64,000 nt of DNA from Agrococcus lahaulensis DSM 17612. Lineage in GTDB: Bacteria > Actinomycetota > Actinomycetes > Actinomycetales > Microbacteriaceae. Below, one piece after another: positions 48,718-64,000 of the stretch. The notes under the pieces are model-generated. The model made no database searches, was not told the origin of the DNA, and was given only the letters and a program-made list of their open reading frames with translations. Made by a program: the position numbers and the translations under genes. How positions within the stretch are numbered: the stretch's first letter is position 1; every line of letters begins with the position of its first letter. The stretch lies in the NCBI RefSeq assembly GCF_000425105.1, contig NZ_KE384303.1, positions 186,001 through 250,000 of the forward strand, in the 5' to 3' direction.

Positions 48718-48774
48718 GGGCTCCCGGCCCGGTGCCGCTGAGCGCCGGGTGCGAGGAGCGGGCGCGCGGCGTGG

Positions 48775-48780
48775 GAGACT
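48775..48780 (+). promoter_or_regulatory. Putative -10 box GAGACT of the kinase cluster
   Basis: GAGACT ends 7 nt before the GTG at 48788; first base deviates from TAnnnT. It would drive the phosphatase-kinase-surface protein-MoxR series, whose next genes overlap or nearly abut. Confidence 0.4.
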
Positions 48781-48787
48781 GGAGGAC

Positions 48788-49630
48788 GTGACCCACATCG
48801 GAGCGGCGAGCGGCGAGCACGCGACACAGGGCCCCGAGGCCCAGCAGTTCGCGGTGCGCTGGGCAGGCATGACCGACACCGGCTTCCGCCGCCAGCACAA
48901 CGAGGACTCCCTCATCACGCAGCCGCCGGTCTTCGCGGTCGCCGACGGGATGGGCGGCCACTCGCACGGCGACCTCGCGAGCAAGGCGGTGGTCGAGCGG
49001 CTCGCCGACCTGCGCGAGCTCTCGGCCGTCGAGCCGATCGACGTCGTCGACGCGCTCCGCCGCGCGACCGACGAGATCGAGCTGCTCGGCGTCGGCGAGG
49101 GCTCGGCGGGTACGACCGTCACCGGCTGCGCGTTCGCGCTGCACGAGGGCGCGCCCCACTTCGCGGTCTTCAACGTCGGCGACTCGCGCACGTACGCGAT
49201 GCTCGGCGAGCGCCTCACGCGCATCACGGTCGACCACTCGGTCGTGCAGGAGCTCATCGACGCGGGCCTGCTCACCGAGGAGGAGGCCGAGACGCACCCG
49301 GAGGCGAACGTCGTCACGCGCGGCGTCGGCGCCGGCATCGACCCCGTGCCCGACTACTTCCTGCTGCCGATCATGCCGCAGCTGCGCCTGCTCGTGTGCT
49401 CGGACGGCCTGACGAAGGAAGTGCACGACGTCGACATCGAGCGCCTGCTGTGGGAGCACGACGACCCCGCCGCCGCCGCGCAGGCGCTCGTCGCCGCCGC
49501 CCTCGACTCGGGCGGGCGCGACAACGTCTCGGTGATCGTCATCGACGTCACGCGCGCGCCGAGCGTCGACGACGTCGACCGGACCGTGCCGCGCACGACG
49601 CTCCGGGACGAGGAGCCCCGGCGGTCCTGA
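48788..49630 (+). CDS. PP2C-family Ser/Thr protein phosphatase
   Basis: A 280-residue metal-dependent phosphatase without membrane helices. All PP2C metal-site motifs are present: DTGFRRQHNEDSL, ADGMGGHSHGD, NVGDSRTY, CSDGLTKEV and GGRDNVSVIVID. It should reverse phosphorylation by the adjacent kinase. GTG 48788 is picked from the -10 spacing; an internal ATG at MTDTGF would remove a 26-residue leader. The stop overlaps the kinase ATG (TGATG). Confidence 0.93.
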   Translation: MTHIGAASGEHATQGPEAQQFAVRWAGMTDTGFRRQHNEDSLITQPPVFAVADGMGGHSHGDLASKAVVERLADLRELSAVEPIDVVDALRRATDEIELLGVGEGSAGTTVTGCAFALHEGAPHFAVFNVGDSRTYAMLGERLTRITVDHSVVQELIDAGLLTEEEAETHPEANVVTRGVGAGIDPVPDYFLLPIMPQLRLLVCSDGLTKEVHDVDIERLLWEHDDPAAAAQALVAAALDSGGRDNVSVIVIDVTRAPSVDDVDRTVPRTTLRDEEPRRS

Positions 49631-50991
49631 TGGCCAGGCGGCTCCCCTCCGCGCCGCCGGTCCTGCCCGGCTACTCGCACCTCCACGTGCTCGGCACGGG
49701 CGGGTACGCCGACGTCTTCCTCTACGAGCAGGCGCTGCCGCGGCGCCCCGTCGCGGTCAAGGTGCTGCTCGCCGAGCTCGTCGACGAGGACGTGCGCCGC
49801 TCGTTCCGCACCGAGGTCAACCTCATGGGTCGCCTCTCGTCGCACCCGAGCATCCTCACGGTCTACGGCGCCTCGGTCGCGAGCGACGGCCGCCCCTACC
49901 TCGTGATGGAGCTCGCGAACCCCGAGCTCGGCGAGCGCTTCCGCTCCGAGCCGCTCGCGCCCGAAGCGGCGCTGCGGGTCGCGATCCGCATCGGCGCCGC
50001 GGTCGAGACCGCGCACCGCGCGGGCGTGCTGCACCGCGACATCAAGCCCGCGAACATCCTCACGACGTCGTTCGGGCACCCCGTGCTGAGCGACTTCGGC
50101 ATCGCGGGCCTCCAGCACGACGCGAGCGAGGCCGCGGGCGTCTCGGTGCCGTGGGCCGCGCCCGAGGTGCTGCGCGGCGAGACGGGCGGCACGATCGCGA
50201 CCGAGGTGTGGTCGCTCGCCGCGACGCTCTTCTCGCTCATCGCCGGCCGCAGCCCCGCCGAGCAGCCTGGCCGTGCGAACGACCACGCGGCGCTCTCCGA
50301 GCGCATCATCGCCCACGACCTGCTGCCCTCGCGCGCGATCCCGGCGGCGCTGCGGCCCGTGCTCGACAAGGCGCTCGCGGCGCGGCCCGGCGACCGCCAC
50401 GAGAGCGTCGAGGAGCTGCTCGGCGAGCTGCAGCGCGTGCAGCGCGAGCTCGGCTTCGAGGTCACCCCCATCGAGGTCGAGGTCGACGCGTGGGCCGCCG
50501 AGCCGATCGTCGAGGGCGACGAGGTCGAGGAGGACTCGGATGCGCTGCGGCTGCGGCAGCGCAGGTCGCGTCGCGCTCCGGGCATCACGGGCAGCCGCGT
50601 CGACATCTCGCAGTCGACGGGCCGGCGCCAGCCGCCGAAGCCGAAGCGCTTCGCGATCGGGCTCGGCATCGCCGCCGCGAGCGCCGTCGTGCTCGGCATC
50701 ATCACCGTCGCCGCGTTCGCGCTCTCGAGCGTCTCGTCGCAGATCCCGCTCGTGCAGGACATCGCCGTGAGTCCCGAGCAGGGCCGGGTCGCGTTCGCGT
50801 GGGAGGACCCGGGCCTCGTCGACACCGACACCTACCACGTGCGCACCTCGACCGGGGATGCCGTCATCCAGGGCGGCCGAGAGTTCACGCTCACGGGCGC
50901 CGCGGGCGAGCGCCTGTGCATCTGGGTCGCGGTGAACCGCGACGGATCGACGGGCGAGTCGACCGAGGCGTGCGGGGAGCCGCTGCCGTGA
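49630..50991 (+). CDS. Transmembrane Ser/Thr protein kinase (Hanks type)
   Basis: A 453-residue receptor-like kinase. The Gly loop is GTGGYADVF (about 22-30), the ATP Lys is in VAVKVLL (about 43), the catalytic loop HRDIKPANIL (about 136) and SDFGIAG (about 156). An acidic juxtamembrane region (about 275-330) leads to one helix (about 341-362). The outside part is only about 90 residues and resembles a fibronectin-type sandwich (RVAFAWEDPGLVDTDTYHV), not PASTA repeats. It is coupled to the phosphatase and precedes the giant surface protein. Confidence 0.93.
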   Translation: MARRLPSAPPVLPGYSHLHVLGTGGYADVFLYEQALPRRPVAVKVLLAELVDEDVRRSFRTEVNLMGRLSSHPSILTVYGASVASDGRPYLVMELANPELGERFRSEPLAPEAALRVAIRIGAAVETAHRAGVLHRDIKPANILTTSFGHPVLSDFGIAGLQHDASEAAGVSVPWAAPEVLRGETGGTIATEVWSLAATLFSLIAGRSPAEQPGRANDHAALSERIIAHDLLPSRAIPAALRPVLDKALAARPGDRHESVEELLGELQRVQRELGFEVTPIEVEVDAWAAEPIVEGDEVEEDSDALRLRQRRSRRAPGITGSRVDISQSTGRRQPPKPKRFAIGLGIAAASAVVLGIITVAAFALSSVSSQIPLVQDIAVSPEQGRVAFAWEDPGLVDTDTYHVRTSTGDAVIQGGREFTLTGAAGERLCIWVAVNRDGSTGESTEACGEPLP

Positions 50992-51015
50992 GGCCGCGGC
51001 GATGAGGGAGCCGAC

Positions 51016-54000
51016 GTGAAGGCGCGGGCCGGCCTCGTCCTCGGCGGGCTCCTCACCGCCGGGCTCGTCGCGGGCGCCGTGCTCGCGCCGGGCTACCAGG
51101 CGCTCGAGCCCGAGCTCGACGGCTCGAGCGTGTGGATCGCGAACGCGAGCGCGGGCGCGATCGGGCTCGCCAACACCGCCAACAGCACGATCGAGCGCAC
51201 CGTGCAGGTCGGCGGCGTCGACGAGGTGCTCCAGACGCCCTCGGGCACCGTCGTCGTCGACCGCAGCGCGTCGACCGTGCGGGTCGTGCGTGAGGGCGAG
51301 TCGCAGGCAGGCCCCGCCGTGCCGATCGTCGCGGGGGCGGTCGTCGCGGCGCGCGACGACCGCGTCGTCATCACGTCGCCCGCGACCGGCGACGTGTGGC
51401 GCACGACGACGGGCGCGATCGCCGAGGGCACGCCGCTCGACGAGCCCGTCGTGGCGCTCGGCCGCGGCGGCGTCGCCGTGCTCGGCGAGGAGAGCCTGCT
51501 CGCCGCCTCGCCGGGCCTCGGCCGCGTGCTGCGCGTCGACGACGAGGGCGAGACGGTCTCGAGCGAGCGCGCCCCCGTCTCGCCCGCCGAGCCCGACCTG
51601 CAGCTCACCGCGCTCGGCGACGACTGGGTGCTCTACGACGCCGGCTCGGGCGTGCTCTCGACGAGCTCGTGGCAGCGCGCCCTCGACGAGACGGGCGTGC
51701 GGCTGCAGGAGCCCGGCCCGAGCGCCGCCGCCGTGCTCTACGCGACCGACTCCGCCCTCGTGCGGCAGCAGCTCGGCGTGCCTGCCGCGACGACGCTCGC
51801 ATCGGGCGCGAGCGGCGAGCCGGCGAGGCCGGTCGTGAGCGACGGATGCGCCTACGCGGCCTGGCAGGGCGGCACCGGCTGGCGCTCGTGCGAGGGCGAG
51901 GAGCCGGTCGTGCTCTCGCTCCAGGGCGTGCCGATCGATGCGAGCCTGCGGATCGTGCAGCGCGGGAGCGCGACCGCGGTGACCGACGTCGGCTCGGGCG
52001 ACGCGTGGTCGATCGACCGCGACGGCCGTCGCATCACGGGCTGGCAGCTCGAGGACGACGAGCCCGCGCCCGAGGCGCCGATCGACGGGGAGGCCGTCGA
52101 GGAGGCCGTCGAGGCCGCGCCCGAGCCTCCCGTCGCGGAGGACGACGACCTCGGGGCGCGCGCGGGGGAGGTGACGGTGCTGCCCGTGCTGCTCAACGAC
52201 AGCGACGCCAACGGCGACCCCATCCTGATCACCGACGTCGCGCTCGACCGGGACGACGCATCCGCCACCATCACCCCCGACGGGCGGGGCATCCGCTTCG
52301 AGGCGCCGGCGGCGGGCGCGACCCGCATCGACTACCGCATCTCGGACGGCGCCGAGAGCGACCGCGCGGTCGCGACGGTCACGCTGCGCGAGGGCAACGA
52401 GCCGCCCGTGCTCGAGCGCCCCGTGCGCGCGACGCTCGAGGCTGGCACGACGATCGCGCTCGACGCGCTCGACGGCTGGGTCGATCCCGAGGGCGACGCG
52501 CTCGCGGTCGTCCGCGCCGAGGCCGCCGCTCCCGACCGCGTGAGCGTGCGCCCCGACGGGCGGCTCGAGTTCACCGACGGCGGCTCGGGCACCGAGCGGC
52601 GGGTGCTCGTGACGGTCACCGACGGCCAGGCCGAGGCGACCGCGGAGATCGTGCTGACGGTGCACGCCGGCGCGGTGCCGATCTCGGCGCAGCCCGTCAC
52701 CGCCGTCACGCGCGTCGGCCAGCAGCTCGTGCTCGAGCCGCTCCTCGCGGCCCAGGGCGGCGCGGGCGAGCTGAGCCTCCACAACGTCGTCGCGCCGAAC
52801 TACCCCGTGGAGCCGAGCTTCGCCGACGGCACCATCCGCGTGCAGCCGACCGACGCGGGGCTCATGCGCTTCTCCTACGTCGTCACCGACGGCACCGCGA
52901 CGCAGGAGGGGCGCGTCGCCGTGCGCGTGCTCGAGGCCGCGGACGCGTCGAGCCCGCCCATCACGACACCGGCGCGCGCGGCGCTCCCGGCGCTCGGCAC
53001 GGTCGAGATCGACGTCGACGAGCTCGCCCTCGACCCCTCGGGCGGCGTCGTCGCGCTCACCTCGGCTGCGAGCGACGACAGCGCCGTGCGGGCCGAGGTC
53101 GTCGACGCCGAGCAGCTGCGGCTCTCGCTCACGGACGAGCTCGCGCAGCAGGCGACGGTGCGCTACGCCGTCACGAACGGCGTGCAGAGCGCCGAGGGCG
53201 AGCTGCGCGTCTCGTCGAGCGGCTCGGCGGCGCTGCAGGCGCCGATCGCGCGCGACGACGAGGTGACCGTGCGGCCCGGCGGCCTCGTCGACATCCCCGT
53301 GCTCGTCAACGACGAGCAGCCCGACGGGCTCGCCCTGGAGCTCGATCCCGCGATCGTCGCCCCGCCCGAGGCGGGCCTGCTGTTCGTCGACGGCGACCGG
53401 ATGCGGTTCGTCGCCCCCGACGAGCCCGGCACCTTCACGGCCGACTACGCCGTGCGCGGGCCCGACGGGCAATCGGCGACGGCCGGCATCACGATGCAGG
53501 TCGCCGAGGCGGCGCGCACGACGAACGCGGCCCCGGCCGCGCCGACGATCGAGGTGCGGGTCGTCGCGGGCGCGACCGTCGACCTCGCGCTGCCGCTCTC
53601 GAACGCCGACCCGAACGGTGATCCCGTGCAGCTGCTCGGACCCTCGACCGCGCCGACGCTCGGCTTCGTCACGCAGCTCGGGCGCTCGACGCTGCGCTAC
53701 CAGGCGGGCGACTACTCCCGCGGCACCGACGAGTTCCGCTACCGCGTGGCCGACGACCTCGGCGCGACCGGGGAGGGCGTCGTGCGCGTCGTGGTCGTCG
53801 AGCAGGGGCCGGCGCTGCCGCCCGTCCTCGGCGCCGACTCGGCAGCGATGCGGCCCGACTCGACGCTCGTCGTGCCGGTGCTCGACAACGACCGCGACCC
53901 CGCCGGGCTGCCGCTCGAGATCGTCGACGTCGAGACCGCCTCGCCAGGTGCGACCGCGTCGATCCGCGAGGGAGCCGTGCTCGTCTCGGCCGCGCCCGAC

Positions 54001-56700
54001 GCGACCGACATGGGCGTCGTCGTCACGGTCGAGAACTCCGCCGGCACGGCCGCCTCGAGCTGGCTCCGCATCGACGTCGAACCCGACGCGCCGCCGCCCG
54101 CGCCCGACGTCACCGACGTGCAGGTGCCGATCCAGTCGATCGCATCGGCCGAGGCGGTGCGGATCGACCCGCTCGCGCAGGCGACGGTGCGCGACGGCCG
54201 GGCGGACGTGCTGCGCGCCAGCCTCCCGCTGCCCGCGGAAGGGGTGACGCTGCGCGACGACGGCTCGATCGAGATCGCGATCGCCGACCGCACGCGCTTC
54301 GTGCCGTTCACGGTCGAGCGCGACGACGCCGAGGGCGCGAGCGCGACGGCCGTCATCGCGGTGCCGGGTCGCGACGACGCGCTCCCGCAGCTCAAGCCCG
54401 GCGTCGCGCCGCTCGAGGCGCGCGCGGGCGAGACGCTCGAGATCGCGATCGACGACGTCGTCGACACCGTCGACGGCGACGGCGCGATGCTGACCGACGC
54501 GAGCGCCGTTCGCGCAGCGCCGACGGACGGCTCGAACCCCGTGATCGACGAGAAGACGCTGCGATTCGTGCCGGAGCCGGGGTACTTCGGGCCCGCGAGC
54601 ATCACGTTCGAGGTCACCGACGGCGAGAGCCCGACCGATCCCGACGGCCGCGTCGGCACGATCGTGCTGCCGATCGAGGTGCTGCCGGGCGAGAACGTGC
54701 CCCTCACGGTGCTCGGCTCGTTCGTGCAGCTCGAGCCCGGCACCGAGCGCTCGATCGACCTCGCCCGCATCACGCGCGCGCCCGACCCCGCCCGGCTCGA
54801 GGGCGCGACGTGGTCAATGCTCGACGAGGTGCCGAACGGCTTCCAGGCGGTGATCGACGGCTCGACGCTCACGGTGCGGGCGCTCGACCGCACCGACCGC
54901 GGCACGCGTGCCGAGCTGCGCGTCGGCGTGCGCGACGCGGCGGGCGAGGGGCTCCCCGGCACCGTCGCGCTCGCGGTCATCTCCACGACGAAGCCGCTCG
55001 TCGCGCCCGAGCCCGACGCCGTGACGGTGCAGCGCGGCACGAGCGCCGAGGTGCAGCCGCTCGACAACGACGAGGCGTCGAACCCGTTCCCCGAGACTCC
55101 CTTGCGGATCGGCGACCTGCGCGTGACGGGCGCCGAGCAGCGCGGCATCACGGCGGTGGTCGACGGGGCGACCGTGCGAGTCTCCGCCTCGGCGACCGCG
55201 GCGATCGGCACGACGATCGTGCAGGTGCTCGTGCTCGATGCCGCCGGCGTGCCCGAGCGCGGCGTGTGGAGCCCCATCGCGGTGACGGTGCAGGACGTGC
55301 CCGACGCGCCGGCGCCGCCCGTGCAGGCGTTCGACGAGCACGTCGACGGGGTCGTGACGATGGCGATCGATCCGCCCGCGAGCAACGGCAGCCCCATCAC
55401 GGGCTACCGCATCGTGGGCAGCGGCGTCGACGTCGCGTGCGGGCCGACGCCGCGCTGCCGCATCGAGGGCCTGCCCGCGGGCGTCGACCTGCGGCTGCAG
55501 GCGATCGCGACGAACGCGCTCGGCGACAGCGCCCCGTCCGAGCCGTCGGAGCCCGTGCACGCCGACCGGCTCCCCGCGGTCGTGCCGGGCGTGCAGGCGA
55601 CGCCCGCGAGCGCCCCAGGATCGGTGCGCGTCGTGTGGCAGGGCGTGCCGCAGCCGCCGGGCGGCACCCCGATCGAGGCCTACCTCGTGCGCGTCTCGGG
55701 CTCGGGCCTCGACCAGCTCGTGCGCGTCGGGCCCGCCGAGCGCCAGAGCGTCATCTCGGGGCTCACGCCCGGCCGCGCGTACTCGATCGAGGTCGCCGCC
55801 GCGAACCGCGCGGGCGTGCCCGACACCGCGTGGCGCTGGCCCGCCGCGCCCGTGCCGTTCACGGCCGTCGGCCTGCCGGGCACGACGCCCGTGCTTGTGA
55901 CGGGCCACGACGGCGGGAGCGTCACCGTGCGGTGGGCCGCGGCGGATCCCGCGGGCGCGGCCGCCGTGCGCTACGCCGCCCGCGTCGTGCCGGTCGGCGA
56001 GCGGCCGTCGTGCTCGAGCGCCGGCGGCGGCAACCCCGGCGGGAGCGCGGCCCTCAGCGCGACCCTGCCCGTCGCGCAGGGCGCGCGCGTCATCGTCGCG
56101 GTCACCGCCGACAACGGCTGGCACTGCTCGGTCTCCGTCTCGGAGCCGGTGTTCGGCAGACCCGCGCCCGTGGACGCATCCGCCGTCGACGTGGTCACGG
56201 AGGTGCGCGAGGACGCCCTCGACGCGCGCCTCGATCGCGCCCCGGCGCTCGCGAGCGGCACGTGGCTCGAGGCGCGGGTCGCGGGCGGCCCCTGGCAGCG
56301 CGCGCAAGCCGGCACGTGGCTCACGCCCTCGAGCGCCGCGTTCCAGTACGGGGAGCAGGTCGGCGTCGACGTGCGCGCGTGCGCGCCGGGAGCGACCCAG
56401 GGCGTCTGCTCGGAGGCGACGGCCGTCGGCCCGGTCGTGCCGCTGCGGCTCCGCGCCACGATCGAGGCGTGCCGCCCGCTCGTGCCGCTCGAGGCGAGCG
56501 TCGAGGGCAACGCGACGCCGCTCGCGGTCGACGAGGTCCTCGCTCGCTACCTCGTCGGCGGCTCGTGGACGAGCGAGCGGCCGGCGACCCAAGCGGTGCC
56601 CGCCGGCGCGACGCGAGTGCAGGCATGGGGCCAAGTAACCTATCTGGAGTCCGGGCCTCACAGGGATCCGTCGCCGACCGAGGCGGATTGCGGGCTGTGA
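51016..56700 (+). CDS. Giant Ig-like / FN3 repeat cell-surface protein
   Basis: A 1894-residue protein, the largest gene here. An uncleaved-looking N-terminal helix (about 5-25) is followed by a propeller-like region (about 35-340) and an acidic Pro/Glu linker. A long row of cadherin/Ig-like (bacterial Ig, VCBS-like) modules follows, marked by repeats of LPVLLNDSDANGDP (about 388), IPVLVNDEQPDG (759), VPVLDNDRDPAG (953) and VQPLDNDEASN (1346). Three fibronectin III modules start near 1429, 1525 and 1623. There is no LPXTG or C-terminal anchor, so tethering must be N-terminal. Likely an adhesin or wall scaffold. RBS GAGGGAG precedes GTG. Confidence 0.85.
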   Translation: MKARAGLVLGGLLTAGLVAGAVLAPGYQALEPELDGSSVWIANASAGAIGLANTANSTIERTVQVGGVDEVLQTPSGTVVVDRSASTVRVVREGESQAGPAVPIVAGAVVAARDDRVVITSPATGDVWRTTTGAIAEGTPLDEPVVALGRGGVAVLGEESLLAASPGLGRVLRVDDEGETVSSERAPVSPAEPDLQLTALGDDWVLYDAGSGVLSTSSWQRALDETGVRLQEPGPSAAAVLYATDSALVRQQLGVPAATTLASGASGEPARPVVSDGCAYAAWQGGTGWRSCEGEEPVVLSLQGVPIDASLRIVQRGSATAVTDVGSGDAWSIDRDGRRITGWQLEDDEPAPEAPIDGEAVEEAVEAAPEPPVAEDDDLGARAGEVTVLPVLLNDSDANGDPILITDVALDRDDASATITPDGRGIRFEAPAAGATRIDYRISDGAESDRAVATVTLREGNEPPVLERPVRATLEAGTTIALDALDGWVDPEGDALAVVRAEAAAPDRVSVRPDGRLEFTDGGSGTERRVLVTVTDGQAEATAEIVLTVHAGAVPISAQPVTAVTRVGQQLVLEPLLAAQGGAGELSLHNVVAPNYPVEPSFADGTIRVQPTDAGLMRFSYVVTDGTATQEGRVAVRVLEAADASSPPITTPARAALPALGTVEIDVDELALDPSGGVVALTSAASDDSAVRAEVVDAEQLRLSLTDELAQQATVRYAVTNGVQSAEGELRVSSSGSAALQAPIARDDEVTVRPGGLVDIPVLVNDEQPDGLALELDPAIVAPPEAGLLFVDGDRMRFVAPDEPGTFTADYAVRGPDGQSATAGITMQVAEAARTTNAAPAAPTIEVRVVAGATVDLALPLSNADPNGDPVQLLGPSTAPTLGFVTQLGRSTLRYQAGDYSRGTDEFRYRVADDLGATGEGVVRVVVVEQGPALPPVLGADSAAMRPDSTLVVPVLDNDRDPAGLPLEIVDVETASPGATASIREGAVLVSAAPDATDMGVVVTVENSAGTAASSWLRIDVEPDAPPPAPDVTDVQVPIQSIASAEAVRIDPLAQATVRDGRADVLRASLPLPAEGVTLRDDGSIEIAIADRTRFVPFTVERDDAEGASATAVIAVPGRDDALPQLKPGVAPLEARAGETLEIAIDDVVDTVDGDGAMLTDASAVRAAPTDGSNPVIDEKTLRFVPEPGYFGPASITFEVTDGESPTDPDGRVGTIVLPIEVLPGENVPLTVLGSFVQLEPGTERSIDLARITRAPDPARLEGATWSMLDEVPNGFQAVIDGSTLTVRALDRTDRGTRAELRVGVRDAAGEGLPGTVALAVISTTKPLVAPEPDAVTVQRGTSAEVQPLDNDEASNPFPETPLRIGDLRVTGAEQRGITAVVDGATVRVSASATAAIGTTIVQVLVLDAAGVPERGVWSPIAVTVQDVPDAPAPPVQAFDEHVDGVVTMAIDPPASNGSPITGYRIVGSGVDVACGPTPRCRIEGLPAGVDLRLQAIATNALGDSAPSEPSEPVHADRLPAVVPGVQATPASAPGSVRVVWQGVPQPPGGTPIEAYLVRVSGSGLDQLVRVGPAERQSVISGLTPGRAYSIEVAAANRAGVPDTAWRWPAAPVPFTAVGLPGTTPVLVTGHDGGSVTVRWAAADPAGAAAVRYAARVVPVGERPSCSSAGGGNPGGSAALSATLPVAQGARVIVAVTADNGWHCSVSVSEPVFGRPAPVDASAVDVVTEVREDALDARLDRAPALASGTWLEARVAGGPWQRAQAGTWLTPSSAAFQYGEQVGVDVRACAPGATQGVCSEATAVGPVVPLRLRATIEACRPLVPLEASVEGNATPLAVDEVLARYLVGGSWTSERPATQAVPAGATRVQAWGQVTYLESGPHRDPSPTEADCGL

Positions 56701-56707
56701 CCGGCAG

Positions 56708-56714
56708 GGAGGAG
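56708..56714 (+). promoter_or_regulatory. Shine-Dalgarno deciding the MoxR start
   Basis: GGAGGAG-type sequence 6 nt before GTG 56721 favours that start over GTG 56697, which overlaps the upstream stop. Confidence 0.55.
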
Positions 56715-56720
56715 CCCACT

Positions 56721-57713
56721 GTGGTGGACGCGAGGGCGGGGGCGGACGTGCGGGCAGTCGACGCGGGCGTCGACGTCTCGACCATCCAGGAGCTCGCCGA
56801 GCGGGTCGTCGAGCAGGTCGAGCGCGTGCTCGTCGGGAAGCCGCACGTCGTGCAGCTCTCGCTCACCGCGATGCTGAGCCACGGGCACCTGCTGATCGAG
56901 GACAACCCGGGCACCGGCAAGACCTCCCTCGCCCGCGCGCTCGCGACGGCGATCTCGGGGACGTCCAACCGCATCCAGTTCACCCCCGACCTGCTGCCGG
57001 GCGACATCACGGGCGTGAGCGTCTGGAGCCAGCGCTCAGGGGAGTTCGAGTACCGGCGGGGGCCGGTGTTCGCGAACGTCGTGCTCGCCGACGAGATCAA
57101 CCGCGCGAGCCCGAAGACGCAGTCGGCGCTGCTCGAGGTGATGCAGGAGGGGCAGGTCACGGTCGACGGGATCGCGCACGCCGTGCCGCAGCCGTTCATG
57201 GTCATCGCGACGCAGAACCCGGTCGAGCACGCCGGCACCTACCAGCTGCCCGAGGCGCAGCTCGACCGATTCGCGCTCAAGGCGTCGATCGGCTACCCCG
57301 ACCACGCGTCGACCCTGCGGATCCTCGCCGACTCGGGCGACGAGATCGCACCCGAGGAGATCGAGCCGGTCGCCGACGTGCGCCTCGTGCAGGCGCTCGC
57401 TCGCGCGGTGCGCGGCGTGCACGTCGAGGCGTCGATCGTCGACTACGTCGCGCGGCTCGTCGACGCGACGCGCGAGGCCGACGAGGTGCGGCTCGGCGTC
57501 TCGGTGCGCGGCGCGCTCGCGCTCGTGCGGACGGCGCGCGCGTGGGCCGCGATCCACGGCCGCGACTACGTGACCCCCGACGACGTGAAGGCGCTCGCCG
57601 TGCCGGCGCTCGCGCACCGCCTCGTGCTGCAGCCGGAGGCGGAGTTCGACGACGTCCGGCCCGAGAGCATCGTGCAGCAGCTCATGCTCACCGTGGCGCC
57701 GCCCAGGCGCTGA
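56721..57713 (+). CDS. MoxR-family AAA+ ATPase
   Basis: A 330-residue AAA+ chaperone. Walker A is EDNPGTGKTS, Walker B VVLADEINR with SPKTQSALLEVMQE, sensor 1 VIATQNPVEHAGTYQLPEAQLDRF, and a C-terminal lid with VSVRGALALVRTARAWAA. MoxR proteins usually remodel a partner encoded next to them, with DUF58 and VWA or transglutaminase proteins. GTG 56721 is chosen; GTG 56697 (overlapping the upstream stop) would add eight residues. Confidence 0.93.
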   Translation: MVDARAGADVRAVDAGVDVSTIQELAERVVEQVERVLVGKPHVVQLSLTAMLSHGHLLIEDNPGTGKTSLARALATAISGTSNRIQFTPDLLPGDITGVSVWSQRSGEFEYRRGPVFANVVLADEINRASPKTQSALLEVMQEGQVTVDGIAHAVPQPFMVIATQNPVEHAGTYQLPEAQLDRFALKASIGYPDHASTLRILADSGDEIAPEEIEPVADVRLVQALARAVRGVHVEASIVDYVARLVDATREADEVRLGVSVRGALALVRTARAWAAIHGRDYVTPDDVKALAVPALAHRLVLQPEAEFDDVRPESIVQQLMLTVAPPRR

Positions 57714-57715
57714 CG

Positions 57716-58894
57716 ATGCGCTGGCTCGACGCCGCCCTGCGCGCCATCACCCCGTGGGGCTGGGCGCTGCTCGCGGTCGTCGCGCTCGGCGTCTTCCTCG
57801 CCCGCTCCCTCGGTTGGGCGGAGGCGCTCGTCTCGGCCGTCGCGGCGGCGACGCTGCTCGTCGGCGCGATCCCGTGGATCGTCGGCGAGCGCTGGGCGCG
57901 CGCCCGCATCGGCCTGAGCGCCGAGCGCGTGCCGGTCGGCGCCGACGCGCTCGCTCTCATCGAGGTGTCGCGCCCGACGCGCGCCGCGACGCCGCGGCAG
58001 ATCGACCTCGACATCGGCGACGAGGAGGCCGTGCTCGAGATCCCGTCGCTCGGCGTCGGCGGCAAGGTGCTGCGCTCCGTGCCGCTCGACACGAGCCGCC
58101 GCGGGCTGCGCACGATCGGGCCCGCGACGATCATGCGCACCGATCCCTTCGGCGTGCTCGAGCGCCGCCACCGGCTCACCGAGACGCGCACGCTCGTCGT
58201 GCACCCGCGCGTCGTGCGGCTGCCGGGCGGCGCGGGCGGCATCGTGCGCGACCTCGAGGGCGAGGCGGCCGCGGAGCGCACCGCCGACGACGTCTCGTTC
58301 CACAGCCTGCGCGAGTACGCGCCGGGCGACGACCGGCGGCTCGTGCACTGGCGCTCGAGCGCGCGCCACGGCTCGCTGCTCGTGCGGCAGTTCGAGCCCT
58401 CGCGCCGCGCCGACACGCTCATCGTGCTCTCGACCGACCCGCGCGAGTACGACGGCGACGACTTCGAGCTCGCCCTCTCGATCGTCGGCACCCTCGGCCT
58501 CGCCGCGATCGCCGACCGCCGATCGCTGCGCATCGTCGAGAGCCCGCGCGCGGAGCGCGGCCCCGTGCGGCCGATCGACGCCGCCACCCGCGACCGGCTG
58601 CTCGACGCGCTCGCGGTGCTCGAGCCCCGCGGCGGCGTCGGCATCGCGGCCGCGGCGCGCGCGTCGCGCAGCACCGCGCGCGGCAGCGTCGCGTGGCTCA
58701 TCACCGGCTCGACCGTGCCGCCGCGGGAGCTGCGCACCGCCGCGAACGGCATGCCCGAGGGCGTCGTCTCGGTCGTCGTGCGCGCCGCGGTCGGCGCGGT
58801 GCCGACGAGGGCGCGGCTCGGCGACGCCGACGTCGCGACCGTCGGCGCGATCGAGGACCTCTCGCGCGGCATCGGCGACGCGGGGCGAGCGTGA
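57716..58894 (+). CDS. DUF58-domain membrane protein
   Basis: A 392-residue protein with two N-terminal helices (about 12-55) and the DUF58 signature SLREYAPGDDRRLVHWRSSARHG...LLVRQFEPS near 200-230. DUF58 proteins accompany MoxR ATPases and carry a degenerate VWA-like fold. ATG is 2 bp after the moxR stop, and its stop overlaps the next GTG (GTGA). Confidence 0.92.
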   Translation: MRWLDAALRAITPWGWALLAVVALGVFLARSLGWAEALVSAVAAATLLVGAIPWIVGERWARARIGLSAERVPVGADALALIEVSRPTRAATPRQIDLDIGDEEAVLEIPSLGVGGKVLRSVPLDTSRRGLRTIGPATIMRTDPFGVLERRHRLTETRTLVVHPRVVRLPGGAGGIVRDLEGEAAAERTADDVSFHSLREYAPGDDRRLVHWRSSARHGSLLVRQFEPSRRADTLIVLSTDPREYDGDDFELALSIVGTLGLAAIADRRSLRIVESPRAERGPVRPIDAATRDRLLDALAVLEPRGGVGIAAAARASRSTARGSVAWLITGSTVPPRELRTAANGMPEGVVSVVVRAAVGAVPTRARLGDADVATVGAIEDLSRGIGDAGRA

Positions 58895-61044
58895 TCCGCC
58901 GCGCGCCGAGCGTCGGGCTGCTCATGCTCGCGATCGCGGCCGCGTGCGTGCCGATGTGGTGGATCTTCGGCACCCTCCAGCTCGTCGTCGCCGTCTCGGT
59001 CTCGCTGCTCGTCGGCGCCGGCATCGGCGTCCTCGGCGCGGTGCGCCGCTGGGGGTCCCTGTCGATGCTGCTCGTCGCGCTCGTCGCGCTCGCGGTGCTC
59101 GCCGTGCCGCTCACCGCCCCGCAGCGCATCGGGCGCGGCGAGTGGGGCGAGGGGCTCGTCGACGCGGCGGCCGCAGCGGTGCTCGCCTGGCGGAGGCTGC
59201 TGACGATCGGGCTGCCGGTCGGCACGAGCGACTCGCTGCTCATGGCGCCGGTGCTGCTCGTGCTCTTCGGCACCCTCATCGGCGTGTGGATCGCGCTGCG
59301 CTCGCGATCGGCGGAGTCGGCGGCGCTCGTGCCCGCGGTCATCGGCGTGTGGGCGATCCTCTGGGGGCCGCTCGCGATGCCCGTCCCATGGTTGCTCGGC
59401 ATGATCGCGCTCGTGCCGATCGGGGCGTACATCACCGTCGTGCGGCAGGCGAGGCGCCGCAGCCGCGCACCGCGCGCACTCTCGTCGCTCGCGCGGCGCG
59501 TCGGCGCGGGCGTCGCGGTCGCGGTCGTCGCCGCGGCCGCGGCGGGCACGGCGGGTGCGCTCGTCGAGCTGCCGGAGCGCGTCGTGCTGCGCGGCGGGAG
59601 CACGTCGTCGGTGGAGCTGCCCGGCGCGTCGCCGATGGCCTCCTACCGCTCGTTCTGGGCGGAGGATCGGCGCGGTGCCCGCCAGCTCACCGCCACGGGC
59701 CTCGTGCCGGGGGACCGCATCCGCATCGCCGCCCTCGACGGCTACGACGGCGAGGTGCTCACGGTCGAGCGCGCCGGCTTCGAGCGCGTCGCGAGCGCCG
59801 AGGAGGGCAGCGGCCGGCTCGTCGGCATCACGATCGACGAGCTCTCGACCCCGTGGCTGCCGACGGTCGGCGTGCCGAGCGGGGTGCGCTTCGTCGGCGA
59901 GCGCGCCGAGCAGCTCGGCTCGACGCTCCACCGCGACCGCGACCTGCGCACGCTCATCGTCGAGGCGGGGCTGCGGCCCGGCGACGGCTTCCAGATGCAG
60001 GTCGAGCAGGGCGCGCCGATCGTGCCGCCCGAGCAGGTGCGGGAGCTCGTGCCAGCCGACCCGGTGCGCGCCGCGATCGAGCTGCCGGAGGAGATGCTCA
60101 CCGCGCTCGCCGCCTGGACGCGCGACGCCGAGACGCCGGGCGCGCGCCTGCACGCGATGGTCGAGGGCATGCGCGCGAGCGGCTACATCAGCCACGGCGT
60201 GCTCGAGGACGAGGCGACCTCGCGGCCCGGCCACTCCCGCGAGCGGCTCACCGAGCTCTTCTCCGAGCCGATGATCGGCGACGCCGAGCAGTACTCGACG
60301 GCGGCGATGCTGCTCGCGCGCCAGCTCGGCTTCGACGCGCGCGTCGTGGTGGGCTTCACGCCCGACGCGATCGAGCCCGGCCAGCCGACGCCGGTCGTCG
60401 GCGCCGACGCGGATGCGTGGATCGAGGTGCGCACGTCGGCGGGCTGGGTCGGCATCGACGTCTCGCCCGCTCCGCGGCCCATCCCCGAGCAGGAGCAGGG
60501 CGCGCCGGCGATCGTGGAGCAGCCGCCCGCGCAGCAGGCGCCGGCACCCGCGCCGGGCGGGCAGCGCCAGGGTGCGGACGCGGCGGCGCCGAACGCGCCC
60601 GAGCGGAGCGAGGACGGCGCCTCGAGGCTGCTCGCGGCGCTCGGCGCGGCGAGCGCGGTGCTGGGCCTGCTCGCGCTCGTCGCCGCGCTCCCGGTCGGGC
60701 TCGTGGTCGCGAAGGTCCTGCGCCGCAGGCGCCGCCGCCGCGCCGACGATCCGCGCGACCGCGCCGAGGGCGCGTGGGCGGAGCTGGTCGACGGCCTGCG
60801 GGATCGCGGCGACGCGGCGCCCGACGCGGGCACGCGGCTCGAGCAGGCGGGCGACGACGACCGGATGCGCGAGCTCGCGCACCGCGTGGACCGCGCGGTG
60901 TTCGCGCCCAGGCCCCCGAGCGAGCCCGAGGTCGACGCCGCGTGGGAGCTGAGCGACGCGGTGCTCGAGCGCCGCGACGAGGACGAGGGCCGGCTGCGCC
61001 CGCTGCTCGCGCGGCTGAACCCCGCCTCGCTCGCGCGGCGCTAG
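58891..61044 (+). CDS. TgpA-like membrane protein with degenerate transglutaminase domain
   Basis: A 717-residue protein with about six N-terminal helices (5-215), an external transglutaminase-fold domain (about 340-530), a Pro/Gln/Ala linker, another helix (about 585-608) and a cytoplasmic tail. In active TgpA proteins the Cys lies in FCEHYAS and the His in SDAHAWVE. Here these are D464-AEQY468 (Cys to Ala465) and D506-ADAW510 (His to Asp508). The Asp (D523 in GIDVSP) remains. It therefore looks like a pseudoenzyme or has another chemistry. GTG overlaps the DUF58 stop. Confidence 0.88.
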   Translation: MIRRAPSVGLLMLAIAAACVPMWWIFGTLQLVVAVSVSLLVGAGIGVLGAVRRWGSLSMLLVALVALAVLAVPLTAPQRIGRGEWGEGLVDAAAAAVLAWRRLLTIGLPVGTSDSLLMAPVLLVLFGTLIGVWIALRSRSAESAALVPAVIGVWAILWGPLAMPVPWLLGMIALVPIGAYITVVRQARRRSRAPRALSSLARRVGAGVAVAVVAAAAAGTAGALVELPERVVLRGGSTSSVELPGASPMASYRSFWAEDRRGARQLTATGLVPGDRIRIAALDGYDGEVLTVERAGFERVASAEEGSGRLVGITIDELSTPWLPTVGVPSGVRFVGERAEQLGSTLHRDRDLRTLIVEAGLRPGDGFQMQVEQGAPIVPPEQVRELVPADPVRAAIELPEEMLTALAAWTRDAETPGARLHAMVEGMRASGYISHGVLEDEATSRPGHSRERLTELFSEPMIGDAEQYSTAAMLLARQLGFDARVVVGFTPDAIEPGQPTPVVGADADAWIEVRTSAGWVGIDVSPAPRPIPEQEQGAPAIVEQPPAQQAPAPAPGGQRQGADAAAPNAPERSEDGASRLLAALGAASAVLGLLALVAALPVGLVVAKVLRRRRRRRADDPRDRAEGAWAELVDGLRDRGDAAPDAGTRLEQAGDDDRMRELAHRVDRAVFAPRPPSEPEVDAAWELSDAVLERRDEDEGRLRPLLARLNPASLARR

Positions 61045-61102
61045 CCGGAGGCGATGTCCACAGGCCCGCCGCGCGACGGCGCACCCCCGCGCCGTCGCGC
61101 GG

Positions 61103-61108
61103 CACCCT
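61103..61108 (+). promoter_or_regulatory. Putative -10 box CACCCT of the FtsK-like gene
   Basis: CACCCT ends 6 nt before the ATG at 61115, matching the arrangement at 46435. It suggests a separate transcript for the ATPase gene. Confidence 0.4.
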
Positions 61109-61114
61109 GCCGCC

Positions 61115-63826
61115 ATGGAGTCGCGCATCCACCTCCCGCGCCCGCCCGTCGAGCCGGAGCCCGCCTCGTTCCCGCTGCTCGCGAGCCTCGCGCCCGTGCT
61201 CGGCGCCGTCGCGATGTGGCTGCTGCTGCAGACGCCGACCGTGCTCGTGCTCGCGCTGCTCGGACCGGTGATCGCGCTCGCGAGCCTCGGCGACGGCCGG
61301 CGCGTGCGCCGAGCGCGAGCGCGCCGCGAGGAGGCGCGCTGGCGAGCGGAGACCGCCGATGCCGCGGAGCGCATCGACCGGGCGGTCGGGGAGCGGCGGC
61401 GGGAGCTCGAGGTCGCGCACCCCGACGCCCGCCGCGTCGCGGCGCGCCCGCCGCACGACCCGCACCGCTGGCGGCGCGAGCGCGGTGCGCCGCTCGAGGT
61501 CGTGCTCGGCGTCGGCGCGCTGCCCTCGGGCATCGTCGTCGAGGGGGTCGTCCCGTCGAGCGATCCCGCCGCCGAGCGGCTCGGCGCGGCGGCGGAGGCC
61601 GCGAGGCTGCGCTCGGCCGCGGCGGTCGTCGAGGGGCCGGTGACGGTCGACGCGCGCGCGGGGATCGGCTTCGTCGGCCCGCTCGCGATCGCGGCCGCGC
61701 TCGCCCGCGCCGCGCTCGTGCAGGTGCTCGACGCCGTCGCGCCCGACGAGGCGGAGGTGATCGCCCCCGACGACGGGATGTGGGACTGGCTCGCGCCGCT
61801 CCCGCACCCCGTGCACCGGGAGCCGGGGCGGCACGTGCGCGTCGTCGGCGACGACGTCGACGTGACGATCGCGGTCGCGCCCGCGCCGTCCCTCCTGCCG
61901 CGCGAGTGCCGCGTCGTCGTGCGCGCCGCGCTCGACGCCGCCCGGCTCGCGAGCCGCGAGCTCGAGCCGACGGCGCTCAGCGTCCGCGAGGCGGCGAGCG
62001 CCGCCCGCTCGCTCGCGCTCGCGGCCGAGCACGCGGGGCTCCGCCGCGCCGGCGCGCTCCCCGCCCGGGCCGAGCTCGACGCGCTTCCGGCGGGCGAGCG
62101 CGGCCTCGAGGCGGTGTTCCTCGTCGCCGATGCCCCGATCGCGCTCGACCTCGAGCGCGACGGTCCGCACGCGGTCGTGGGCGGCACGACCGGCGCGGGC
62201 AAGAGCGAGCTGCTCGTCGCGTGGGTCGCGGCGATGGCGGCGGGCCGCTCGACCGCGGAGGTGTCGTTCCTGCTCGTCGACTTCAAGGGCGGCGCGTCGT
62301 TCGCCGCGCTCCACGCGCTCGCGCACGTCGTGGGCGTCATGACCGACCTCGACGAGGCAGGCGCGCGCCGAGCGATCGAGAGCCTGCGCGCCGAGCTGCG
62401 CCGGCGCGAGCGCGAGCTCGCCGAGCGCGGCGCGCGCTCGATCGAGGAGGCGACGGGGCTGCCGCGGCTCGTGATCGTCGTCGACGAGTTCGCGGCGATG
62501 CTCGACGAGCTGCCCGACCTGCACCGGCTCTTCGTCGACCTCGCGGCGCGCGGCCGCTCGCTCGGCGTGCACCTCGTGCTGTGCACGCAGCGGCCCGCCG
62601 ACGCGGTGCGCGACGCGCTGCTCGCCAACTGCGGCATCCGCATCTCGCTGCGCGTCACGTCCGAGGCCGACGCCGTCGCCGTGACGGGGAGCCCCGAGGC
62701 GGCGGCGATCCCGCTCGAGGCGCGCGGCCGCTGCGTCGTGCGCGTGAGCGGCGGCGCGACGCGGCTCGCGCAGGCCGCGCTCGCCTCGCCCGCGCTCCTG
62801 CAGCGGCTCGTCTCGGCTTCCGCGGCGATGCCGAGGCCACCGCGGCCGTGGCGCGAGCCGCTGCCGGCGCGCGTGCGGCTCGCCGACGTGCCGCTTGCCA
62901 GCGGGGCCGTCGACGCGGCGGGCGACGCGGCGGGTGCCGACGGGCGCGGCGACGGGCGCGAAGTGCGGCTCGGCCTCGTCGACCGGCCCGCGCGGCAGGC
63001 CGTCGAGCCCGCGCGGTGGCGGCCGGCGACCGACGGGCCGCTCCTCGCGATCGGGGGCGCGGGCAGCGGTCGCTCGAGCCTCGCCGACCTCCTCGCGGGC
63101 CAGCTCGGCGTCGCCGTCGTCGATCGTGAGGACGCGCTGTGGGACGCGCTCGAGGAGCCCGGCCCGCTCGTCGTCGACGACCTCGACCTGCAGCTCGCGC
63201 GGCTCGGTGAGTCGCAGCAGGCGATCGCGGTGCAGCTGCTGCTGCGCCGCATGCGCGAGGGCGCCCCTGTCGCGCTGACCGCGCGCCGGGTCTCGAGCGC
63301 GATGAGCCAGGTCGCGGCGCTCGCCGAGACGCGCGTGCTGCTGCGGATCGCGAGCCGGCAGGAGCACATCGTCGCGGGCGGCGCGGGCGCGCTGCACGAC
63401 GCCGGGCTGCCGCCCGGCGCCGGGTGGCTCGCCGACGAGCGCATCCAGCTCGCGCTGCCCGACGCGAGGGCCGTGCGGCGCGCACCGGTGTCCGTGCCGA
63501 TGCCGGCCGGGCCCGTCGCGGTCGTGATGGGCGCCGGTGCCGCGCTGCCGCCGGCGCTCGCGAGCGCGGCGCGGCCGGCTTCCGGTGCGAGCGCCGCGGC
63601 GGTCGTCGGCTCGGTCGCCGAGTGGGAGGCGGCGTGGGGCGAGCTCGACCGGCTCCGCGCCGAGCGCCCTGTCGTCGTGCTCGGCGTCGACGAGCGAGCG
63701 CTCCGGCAGGTGCTGCGGCACGCGCCGCCTGCGCCGCCGATGCGCGAAGCGCCCGCCTGGGTGCTCCAGGACGGGCGCTTCGCGAGGCTCCGCTATCCGA
63801 GCAGCGACGCGACCGATGCGGGCTGA
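61115..63826 (+). CDS. FtsK/SpoIIIE-type ATPase, EccC-like (type VII secretion related)
   Basis: A 903-residue protein. Two N-terminal helices (about 22-58) precede a basic linker and a first FtsK/SpoIIIE domain with intact Walker A GGTTGAGKS (about 358) and Walker B LVIVVDEFAAML, plus LVDFKGGASF and RGRSLGVHLVLCTQRP. The second domain has Walker A GGAGSGRSS (about 647) with Arg replacing the catalytic Lys, and VVDDLDLQ as Walker B. One active and one degenerate ATPase domain with N-terminal helices is the EccC plan; FtsK motor proteins have a gamma domain, absent here. No WXG100 gene follows. Its 3' end overlaps the convergent ald by 34 bp. Confidence 0.87.
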   Translation: MESRIHLPRPPVEPEPASFPLLASLAPVLGAVAMWLLLQTPTVLVLALLGPVIALASLGDGRRVRRARARREEARWRAETADAAERIDRAVGERRRELEVAHPDARRVAARPPHDPHRWRRERGAPLEVVLGVGALPSGIVVEGVVPSSDPAAERLGAAAEAARLRSAAAVVEGPVTVDARAGIGFVGPLAIAAALARAALVQVLDAVAPDEAEVIAPDDGMWDWLAPLPHPVHREPGRHVRVVGDDVDVTIAVAPAPSLLPRECRVVVRAALDAARLASRELEPTALSVREAASAARSLALAAEHAGLRRAGALPARAELDALPAGERGLEAVFLVADAPIALDLERDGPHAVVGGTTGAGKSELLVAWVAAMAAGRSTAEVSFLLVDFKGGASFAALHALAHVVGVMTDLDEAGARRAIESLRAELRRRERELAERGARSIEEATGLPRLVIVVDEFAAMLDELPDLHRLFVDLAARGRSLGVHLVLCTQRPADAVRDALLANCGIRISLRVTSEADAVAVTGSPEAAAIPLEARGRCVVRVSGGATRLAQAALASPALLQRLVSASAAMPRPPRPWREPLPARVRLADVPLASGAVDAAGDAAGADGRGDGREVRLGLVDRPARQAVEPARWRPATDGPLLAIGGAGSGRSSLADLLAGQLGVAVVDREDALWDALEEPGPLVVDDLDLQLARLGESQQAIAVQLLLRRMREGAPVALTARRVSSAMSQVAALAETRVLLRIASRQEHIVAGGAGALHDAGLPPGAGWLADERIQLALPDARAVRRAPVSVPMPAGPVAVVMGAGAALPPALASAARPASGASAAAVVGSVAEWEAAWGELDRLRAERPVVVLGVDERALRQVLRHAPPAPPMREAPAWVLQDGRFARLRYPSSDATDAG

Positions 63827-64000
63827 AGACCGAGCGCCGAGGCGACGCCCTCGTGCGCCACCCGTCCGCCCGTGGTGTTGAGGCCGGCCGCGAGACCGGC
63901 GTCGGCCTGCAGCGCGTCGCGCCAGCCGAGGTCCGCGAGCTTCAGGGTCGCGGCGAGCGTCGCGTTCGTGAGCGCCTCCGTCGAGGTGCGCGGCACGGCG
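63793..64000 (-). CDS. ald: Alanine dehydrogenase, C-terminal end (partial)
   Basis: Only the last 68 or so codons are in the window. The sequence VPRTSTEALTNATL...LADLGWRDAL...LAAGLNTTGG matches the conserved C-terminal part of L-alanine dehydrogenase, which interconverts alanine with pyruvate and ammonia using NAD. The usual AEAHGL-like end reads ASALGLQPASVASLLG. The gene continues beyond the window on the minus strand. Its stop lies inside the 3' end of the EccC-like gene. Confidence 0.85.
   Translation of the reverse strand, partial: AVPRTSTEALTNATLAATLKLADLGWRDALQADAGLAAGLNTTGGRVAHEGVASALGLQPASVASLLG

Follow-up and report, generated by a model that had tools for sequence, protein, structure and literature searches.

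The PFNA operon of Bifidobacterium is described, in the available parts of the reports, as the gene order pkb2-fn3-aaa-atp-duf58-tgm, with prpC, a hypothetical gene and fha as optional members (PMC8430577, PMC6803598). The available part of one of these reports gives co-transcription of the genes and phosphorylation of MoxR by the kinase for B. longum only (PMC8430577). The accessible portion of another paper likens a mycobacterial moxR operon to the PFNA operon, and describes the DUF58 protein as functionally unidentified (PMC12067865). In bifidobacteria, the operon has been discussed as a sensor of immune signals. Here we describe a related cluster of seven genes in Agrococcus lahaulensis DSM 17612 (2.68 Mb genome, 13 contigs). 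It occupies positions 48788-63826, on the plus strand, of a stretch of 64,000 nucleotides of contig C3, which we analysed as a whole and refer to as the window. In this cluster, genes of the PFNA type are followed by a gene for a short EccC-type ATPase. On balance, we lean towards a reading in which the cluster joins two units, an envelope module of the PFNA type and a reduced EccC motor that is paired with a WXG100 protein encoded on another contig, beside groEL.

Type VII secretion systems of the ESX type (T7SSa) comprise EccB, EccC, EccD, EccE, MycP and Esx pairs, and those of type VIIb comprise EssC, EssB/YukC, EsaA, EsaB and EsxA. Our literature searches found no publication joining the PFNA operon with type VII secretion or WXG100, none combining type VII secretion, MoxR, DUF58 and transglutaminase, none combining type VII secretion, WXG100 and Microbacteriaceae, and none joining five of six themes that included PP2C, FHA, EccC and MoxR. 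To judge by titles and the beginnings of abstracts, type VII secretion combined with transglutaminase and fibronectin type III (FN3) led only to a review of structural modelling, and Bifidobacterium combined with WXG100 and FHA only to a general review of adhesion; among the matches listed, the word Micrococcales occurred in none of those on actinobacterial type VII secretion or EccC, and the groEL-side WXG100 gene was not the subject of any publication.

Gene content of the PFNA-type core

As far as the available parts of the Bifidobacterium reports allow a comparison, the five core genes agree in order and lie on one strand. They encode a receptor Ser/Thr kinase (STK), an FN3 protein, MoxR, a DUF58 protein and a TgpA-like membrane pseudo-transglutaminase (TGM). 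A PP2C gene is also present in both, the kinase has a transmembrane (TM) segment and a variable tail, and the FN3 protein is large and of an exported type. With the same limitation, the window cluster differs in that the PP2C gene comes first and not sixth, an FHA gene is absent, a short EccC gene stands at the end, and the giant protein is rich in Ig and propeller structure. Pfam gave one fn3 stretch in this protein; that of Bifidobacterium has two FN3 domains. Loci that we take to be Bifidobacterium-like were found in family f4 of the order. Three of them (L068-L070, genomes of 1.9-2.7 Mb) read STK-giant-MoxR-DUF58-TGM-PP2C, a fourth (L071) has the first five genes and no PP2C match, and a fifth (L067) is cut inside the giant gene.

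An earlier note on this DNA had described seven overlapping or nearly abutting reading frames on the plus strand, whose sizes we confirmed and whose Pfam families agree. The PP2C and STK genes overlap, as do those of the giant and MoxR (4 bp) and of DUF58 and TGM (4 bp); the remaining gaps are 24 bp (STK to giant), 2 bp (MoxR to DUF58) and 70 bp (TGM to ATPase). The first gene (48788-49630, GTG start, frame open from 48749) encodes a PP2C-type Ser/Thr phosphatase of 280 residues (Pfam PP2C_2, 6.1e-7). The STK has 453 residues (49630-50991; Pkinase, 6.1e-35), with an alternative in-frame GTG 6 bp upstream of its start, and matches models of active kinases. Its TM segment (residues 347-365, ~50668-50724) is followed by an extracytoplasmic tail of ~85 residues (~50725-50988), in which F, W, C, R and C are invariant among 28 aligned sequences. 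By this pattern the tail looks FN3/Ig-like. Library matches were weak: Pfam reported fn3 in three of the 28 members (best E 0.0055) and no family in the window tail, and the best match in the PDB had an E value of 0.017.

The third gene (51016-56700) encodes the giant surface protein of 1894 residues (Pfam Big_9/fn3). It begins with a hydrophobic segment (residues 5-23, 51028-51084), and a second stretch above the hydropathy threshold (1389-1407) lies within the repeat region. Residues 35-345 (~51118-52050) are predicted to form an all-beta domain, with an AlphaFold pLDDT above 90 across most of its length. The top match in Foldseek was 1l0q, an S-layer protein with a YVTN beta-propeller and PKD, and the other best neighbours were also beta-propellers; the domain is thus a predicted beta-propeller. 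It is followed by Big_9/Ig repeats and one fn3 stretch at 55588-55818 (Pfam, whole-protein E 1.7e-10). Big_9 was present in 24 of 24 aligned relatives, within the first 480 residues of each. The protein probably has its own export or anchor segment, with export by the Sec route suggested by hydropathy only.

MoxR (56697-57713, 338 residues) is a family member of the AAA+ ATPases (AAA_3, 2.1e-61; AAA_lid_2, 1.1e-27). It also matches bpMoxR, at a far lower level (3.4e-10). The MoxR-vWA-beta-propeller ternary conflict systems, in the accessible part of their description (PMC7159879), are similar in that MoxR is encoded with a propeller protein. They differ in that the protein bearing the propeller in the window also has Ig/FN3 repeats and, at its N-terminus, a membrane segment, and in that the window MoxR fits AAA_3 far better. 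The DUF58 protein (57716-58894, 392 residues; PF01882, 1.6e-9) has two N-terminal hydrophobic segments.

The TGM (58891-61044, 717 residues) matches Transglut_core, and TgpA_N below threshold (24.9 bits, cut-off 30). We take GxC to be the catalytic motif of transglutaminases. Where an intact enzyme has GxCxxY, the window protein reads GDAEQY: the position of the catalytic Cys is Ala (codon 60283-60285), and that of the His is Asp. The Cys was absent in 31 of 31 cluster proteins, including that of the window and that of a second cluster on contig C4 described below, and in all 11 further loci (10 located by pattern, L073 read), amounting to 42 of 42 sequences. No such Cys was present in the five f4 loci that were read. 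The comparison is a fair one because the motif is intact (GYCVHYA, followed by HSW) in a third TgpA-like protein that this genome encodes. The designation as a pseudo-transglutaminase in the earlier note was therefore apt, and the TGM of this gene set is, from its residues, very probably not an active enzyme.

The short EccC-type ATPase and the WXG100 gene beside groEL

The last gene of the cluster (61115-63826) encodes the ATPase of 903 residues (FtsK_SpoIIIE), 89% identical in the best segment to that of Agrococcus pavilionensis. The EccC-like nature proposed for it in the earlier note is supported by the best PDB match in a profile search, EccC of T. curvata (4nh0, E 3.6e-87), with YukB and EccC5 also matched, and by the structure model (mean pLDDT 85.2), for which Foldseek again gave 4nh0 as the top match. 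The protein consists of two TM segments, D0, D1 (P-loop ~62180-62206) and a reduced D2, and has no Ubl, FHA or D3 domain. Profile alignment with the long EccC paired D1 with D1 (1.1e-73), and the second domain with D2 (2.9e-25) better than with D3 (1.4e-7). Residues 795-903 gave no significant match to D3 in the same kind of alignment (probability 2.1%). An arrangement in which D3 was kept and D2 lost was considered on the basis of the HMMER alignment to 4nh0, which was ambiguous, and was rejected as profile alignment gave D2. The Walker A and B motifs of D1 are invariant in 19 aligned sequences (leaving out L019, with an interrupted EccC frame, and L031, a fragment), and the P-loop Lys of D2 is Arg in the Agrococcus sequences. 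The NCBIfam score for EccCa (203.6 bits) lies under the cut-off of 509.15, and that for EccCb is also under its cut-off. Judged by sequence, the ATPase is an EccC homologue, a reduced motor without the Ubl/FHA N-terminus and D3.

The earlier note had pointed to the absence of WXG100 and EccD genes. This holds for the cluster, and in the case of EccD for the whole genome. It does not hold for WXG100, of which the genome has three genes, two on C4 and one on C1, with none in the window cluster. The stand-alone gene on C4 (227024-227308, minus strand) lies between groEL and a response-regulator/histidine-kinase pair. Its product of 96 residues scores 56.8 bits with TIGR03930, over the NCBIfam cut-off of 44.85. 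In an alignment of 10 such proteins, W43/G45 and Y83/E87 are invariant; YxxxD/E is a type VII signal. A WXG100 gene adjoins groEL, near the same response regulator, in nine of nine loci from genomes with a single, short EccC, and the nine proteins are 47-59% identical to that of Agrococcus. Three contrast regions, two in which the WXG100 gene is not beside groEL (G014, G028) and one arbitrary stretch (G031), contained no groEL match.

We then compared the distribution of the two genes in 120 Microbacteriaceae genomes, drawn evenly from 85 genera. The list of 76 genomes with a short EccC was made by hand and fixed before the WXG100 search, with at most seven candidates scored per genome. It excludes two lower-scoring frames of 826 and 564 residues (G046, G067) and weaker matches, and all EccC counts, here and in the survey of the order, are counts among the matches listed. 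A profile of the 10 aligned WXG100 proteins split the 120 genomes cleanly, with 86 at at least 84 bits and the remainder at no more than 52 bits. The groEL-type WXG100 was present in 75 of the 76 genomes with short EccC, the single miss being a 75% complete genome, vs 11 of the 44 without. With one genome per genus, the numbers were 53/54 vs 9/31, and among the 65 strongest EccC matches 65/65. The protein was found in 46/46 genomes in which the core adjoins the short EccC and in 29/30 with a short EccC and no adjacent core, vs 0/9 inspected genomes with the core and no short EccC. Fourteen genomes of at least 96% completeness had one strong EccC match (short), one WXG100 (groEL type) and no EccD match. 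On the 21 W-type tips of a tree of core genes, short EccC and WXG100 had an identical pattern with three changes (shuffled mean 7.0). This co-occurrence makes it likely that the motor and the WXG100 protein are partners.

One could also suppose that a degraded type VII locus left the short EccC behind as a remnant or regulator with no role in secretion, and that its tie to WXG100 reflects shared ancestry only. The loss of D3, Ubl and FHA and the Arg in the D2 P-loop of Agrococcus would fit this supposition. We nevertheless consider it quite improbable, taking into account the invariant D1 Walker residues, the presence of the protein in 76 of 120 genomes and its being the sole EccC match in 14. 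In seven small genomes of 1.4-1.8 Mb (G010, G013, G027, G030, G067, G092, G095), we observed a groEL-type WXG100 together with an EccC match that was weak, shorter or none. Such genomes possibly harbour a further reduced motor.

Core and motor, together and apart

The order giant-MoxR-DUF58-TGM-EccC-ald-gabT was kept in all nine Agrococcus loci (L012-L020). Six further loci from five genera (L033-L038; L036 and L037 are from one genus, as are L065 and L066 below) read FHA-PP2C-STK-giant-MoxR-DUF58-TGM-FHA-EccC, and the window cluster lacks both of these FHA genes. From gap sizes, PP2C had been considered to lie usually between TGM and EccC. This was rejected, as the fetched loci had FHA at that place and PP2C in front. 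Seven loci had EccC and PP2C without any core gene in the examined flank (L021, L022, L023, L025, L026, L029, L030), and PP2C adjoins the short EccC in four of four core-less loci that were fetched (L039-L042; L039 and L038 are records of L029 and L028, respectively). In one locus of Homoserinimonas (L024, 5592-10000), ABC-transporter genes (binding protein, ATPase) were observed between TGM and the short EccC.

Among the 76 genomes with short EccC, the TGM gene lay no more than 2 kb upstream in 43 and 2-12 kb upstream in three, was present only elsewhere in 22 and was not listed in eight. At most 30 of the 76 genomes thus have a short EccC with no TGM listed in the 12 kb before it, an upper bound, since TGM matches below ~330 bits were not taken in and contig breaks can hide adjacency. 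Four of the eight genomes had weak TGM matches and four had none. In the opposite direction, the core occurred without a listed short EccC in nine inspected genomes from eight genera (L050-L052, L060-L063, L065, L066), two of which (G003, G031) had only weak EccC matches (best ~1e-48 and ~1e-46). Core and EccC lie ~200 kb apart in two genomes (G086, G002). Core and short motor can therefore come apart, as two units.

These results bear on the model of the earlier note, a kinase-controlled system with the EccC-like ATPase as exporter of the giant protein and with MoxR, DUF58 and TGM as maturation or gating factors. Adjacency in the nine Agrococcus loci and in L033-L038 is in its favour, as is a TGM gene within 12 kb upstream in 46/76 genomes and in 13/14 genomes with the short EccC as the sole match. 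However, in the neighbourhood comparison that the earlier note had itself named as a check, the parts occur without each other, the kind of outcome that it had named as a refutation, in the nine core-only genomes and in up to 30 of the 76 with the ATPase. The giants of eight core-only genomes, fetched whole, are similar in size (1915-1956 residues), and each has an initial hydrophobic segment. In addition, the ATPase tracks WXG100 more closely than the giant. On these grounds, separability, a hydrophobic segment of its own and the co-occurrence with WXG100, we rejected the giant as the substrate of the ATPase and regard the exporter model as very unlikely; the giant is not obligately tied to the ATPase. 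What stands of the single phospho-controlled system is a conserved kinase/phosphatase module found with a type VII-like ATPase. The link to type VII secretion was thus recognized correctly, and the substrate was probably misassigned.

Several points weigh against the two-unit reading that we favour. Co-occurrence is not interaction, and phylogeny was controlled only roughly in the counts. Three changes on the tree are few, the tree is one of core genes and not of species, and the branch leading to the window is long and weakly placed (0.223). (Two of the 31 tips lack a kinase sequence, and for L055 and L057 the second copies of TGM and DUF58 were not included.) The WXG100 profile was built from 10 genomes, all bearers of the short EccC, adjacency to groEL was checked in 10 genomes only, and the short-EccC list was compiled by hand. 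The WXG100 protein also occurs without a listed short EccC in 11 genomes, nine of them at least 97% complete; among the matches listed, EccC is represented by a weaker match in six of these and by none in five. As for the mechanism, D3 serves as the binding site in EccC. The title of PDB entry 4n1a locates a signal peptide on a construct of EccC that comprises ATPases 2 and 3. With D3 missing, the mode of WXG100 recognition is unclear. Finally, 46 of the 76 genomes have the core next to their short EccC, and its TGM gene is adjacent in 13 of the 14 with no other EccC match, so that a functional tie of the motor to the core is also likely.

The cluster ends with the ATPase gene. On the opposite strand follow ald, encoding alanine dehydrogenase, whose 3' part (63803-64000, minus strand) is convergent and runs past the window, and gabT. 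Small frames straight after the ATPase gene were considered as WXG100-like and rejected, as they are antisense to ald. The earlier note had placed a putative promoter before the ATPase gene. We found no promoter-like site in 48600-63900, a weak test in high-GC DNA, and no terminator-like site of the cluster region in the same kind of scan. Downstream of the window, another MoxR-family gene was observed between ispG and proS (L005, 11067-12140).

A second cluster with an EssC-like ATPase

The same genome has a second, full cluster on C4 (~2000-24300; L032, L009). It contains genes for a giant of ~2040 residues, MoxR, DUF58, TGM, FHA, PP2C, FHA, STK and FHA, followed by an ATPase of 1530 residues (FHA and three ATPase domains), a WXG100 protein and a protein of 102 residues; a longer frame bearing hydrophobic segments was also observed there. 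Identities to the window proteins are 56% for MoxR, 47% for STK, 42% for PP2C, 38% for DUF58, 30% for TGM, 37% over 369 columns for EccC and 29% over 1738 columns for the giant. The best NCBIfam score of the C4 ATPase is with EssC (533.6 bits, under the cut-off of 778.4). These alignments indicate that the two clusters are paralogous and that the evolutionary link to type VII secretion is real. A separate locus on C1 (592286-592540; L003, L011) encodes a WXG100 protein identical to that of the C4 cluster, followed by a frame of 101 residues and a long frame with hydrophobic segments, and has the appearance of a satellite locus encoding a substrate for the C4 system.

In the survey of the order, 62 genomes had a TGM match of at least ~160 bits, weaker ones not being taken in. 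A TGM gene followed on its own strand, at a distance of no more than 16 kb, by a long EccC (a frame of at least 1200 residues) occurred in 21 of the 62, from eight family groups. In 11 loci the sequence extended far enough past the long EccC; a WXG100-like frame followed it in seven of them, in three cases recognised only by size and the W-x-G pattern, and none was seen in the other four (L045, L073, L074, L075). EccC matches reaching the end of the short model came from family f1 genomes only, among the matches listed. No EccD match was found in the Agrococcus genome, with a model that matches in 22 of the 120 relatives, or in any of the seven Microbacteriaceae genomes having TGM beside a long EccC. 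YukC/EssB also gave no match in the own genome with a B. subtilis control that was matched, and EccB gave none there, with the control genomes silent too.

Compared with ESX systems, the locus shares an EccC-family motor, and the genome WXG100 proteins. It differs in that the window EccC has D1 and D2 only, the genome has no EccD match and the cluster has no WXG100 gene. With type VIIb systems it shares, in C4, an ATPase with an FHA domain and EssC as the best score, and a kinase with TM segment and outer tail presumably recalls the layout of EssB. On the other hand, there is no YukC/EssB match in the genome, the kinase is of the active type where EssB is a pseudokinase, and the window motor has no FHA domain.

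These findings can also be read in another way, namely that an EccD-free type VII machine has the PFNA module as its envelope part, with giant, DUF58 and pseudo-transglutaminase as conduit or scaffold for an EccC/EssC motor that exports WXG100 proteins. The C4 cluster would then be the full version, and the window a paralogue with a short motor and WXG100 encoded elsewhere. Several observations speak for it: in C4, this gene set accompanies a full EssC-like ATPase, 21 of 62 genomes have TGM and a long EccC, WXG100-like frames occur in seven of 11 loci, EccD and YukC matches are missing, and of the 14 genomes whose only EccC match is short, 13 have the core next to it. Against it are f4 loci and other core clusters without an adjacent EccC, the eight of 76 short-EccC genomes without a TGM match above ~330 bits, the 41 of 62 TGM genomes without an adjacent long EccC, and the four of 11 loci in which no WXG100-like frame was found after the long EccC. 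We consider this reading somewhat unlikely as it stands. Clusters of the C4 type argue for such an envelope part, as does the adjacent core in 13 of the 14 genomes; motor-less cores speak against an obligate link, and so do the eight short-EccC genomes in which no strong TGM match was listed.

In the two-unit reading, the kinase with its FN3/Ig-like outer tail and its PP2C antagonist would control MoxR, a target that the kinase is reported to phosphorylate in B. longum only (PMC8430577). MoxR, an AAA+ chaperone, would remodel a complex formed in the membrane by the DUF58 protein and the catalytically dead TgpA-like transglutaminase, and this complex may hold or assemble the giant in the envelope. 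The giant itself, with a membrane segment, a propeller and an Ig/FN3 rod, would probably be exported by Sec. In the second unit, the motor and the groEL-side WXG100 protein would make up a minimal unit for type VII-like secretion, one that lacks D3, EccD and EssB/YukC.

More broadly, we tentatively raise the possibility that the order has an undescribed type VII-like lineage, in which a PFNA module (giant, DUF58, dead TGM, MoxR, and control by kinase, phosphatase and FHA) replaces EccD as the envelope part. A full form would have the EssC-like ATPase and WXG100, and a minimal form the short D1-D2 EccC and the groEL-side WXG100. In this view, the PFNA operon of bifidobacteria would represent a branch whose motor gene lies at another place: all seven f4 genomes with a TGM match (G122, G139, G155, G185, G199, G213, G227) carry an EccC-like frame of 593-761 residues away from the TGM cluster, which is possibly a further reduced motor. 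The analysis joins two literatures, on the bifidobacterial PFNA operon and on type VII secretion, and proposes, for a secretion-type ATPase that has no substrate gene beside it, a specific motor/substrate pair that can be tested. It also places MoxR, DUF58 and TGM with a defined motor, kinase and surface protein, in a gene set whose so-called transglutaminase would very probably be no active enzyme.

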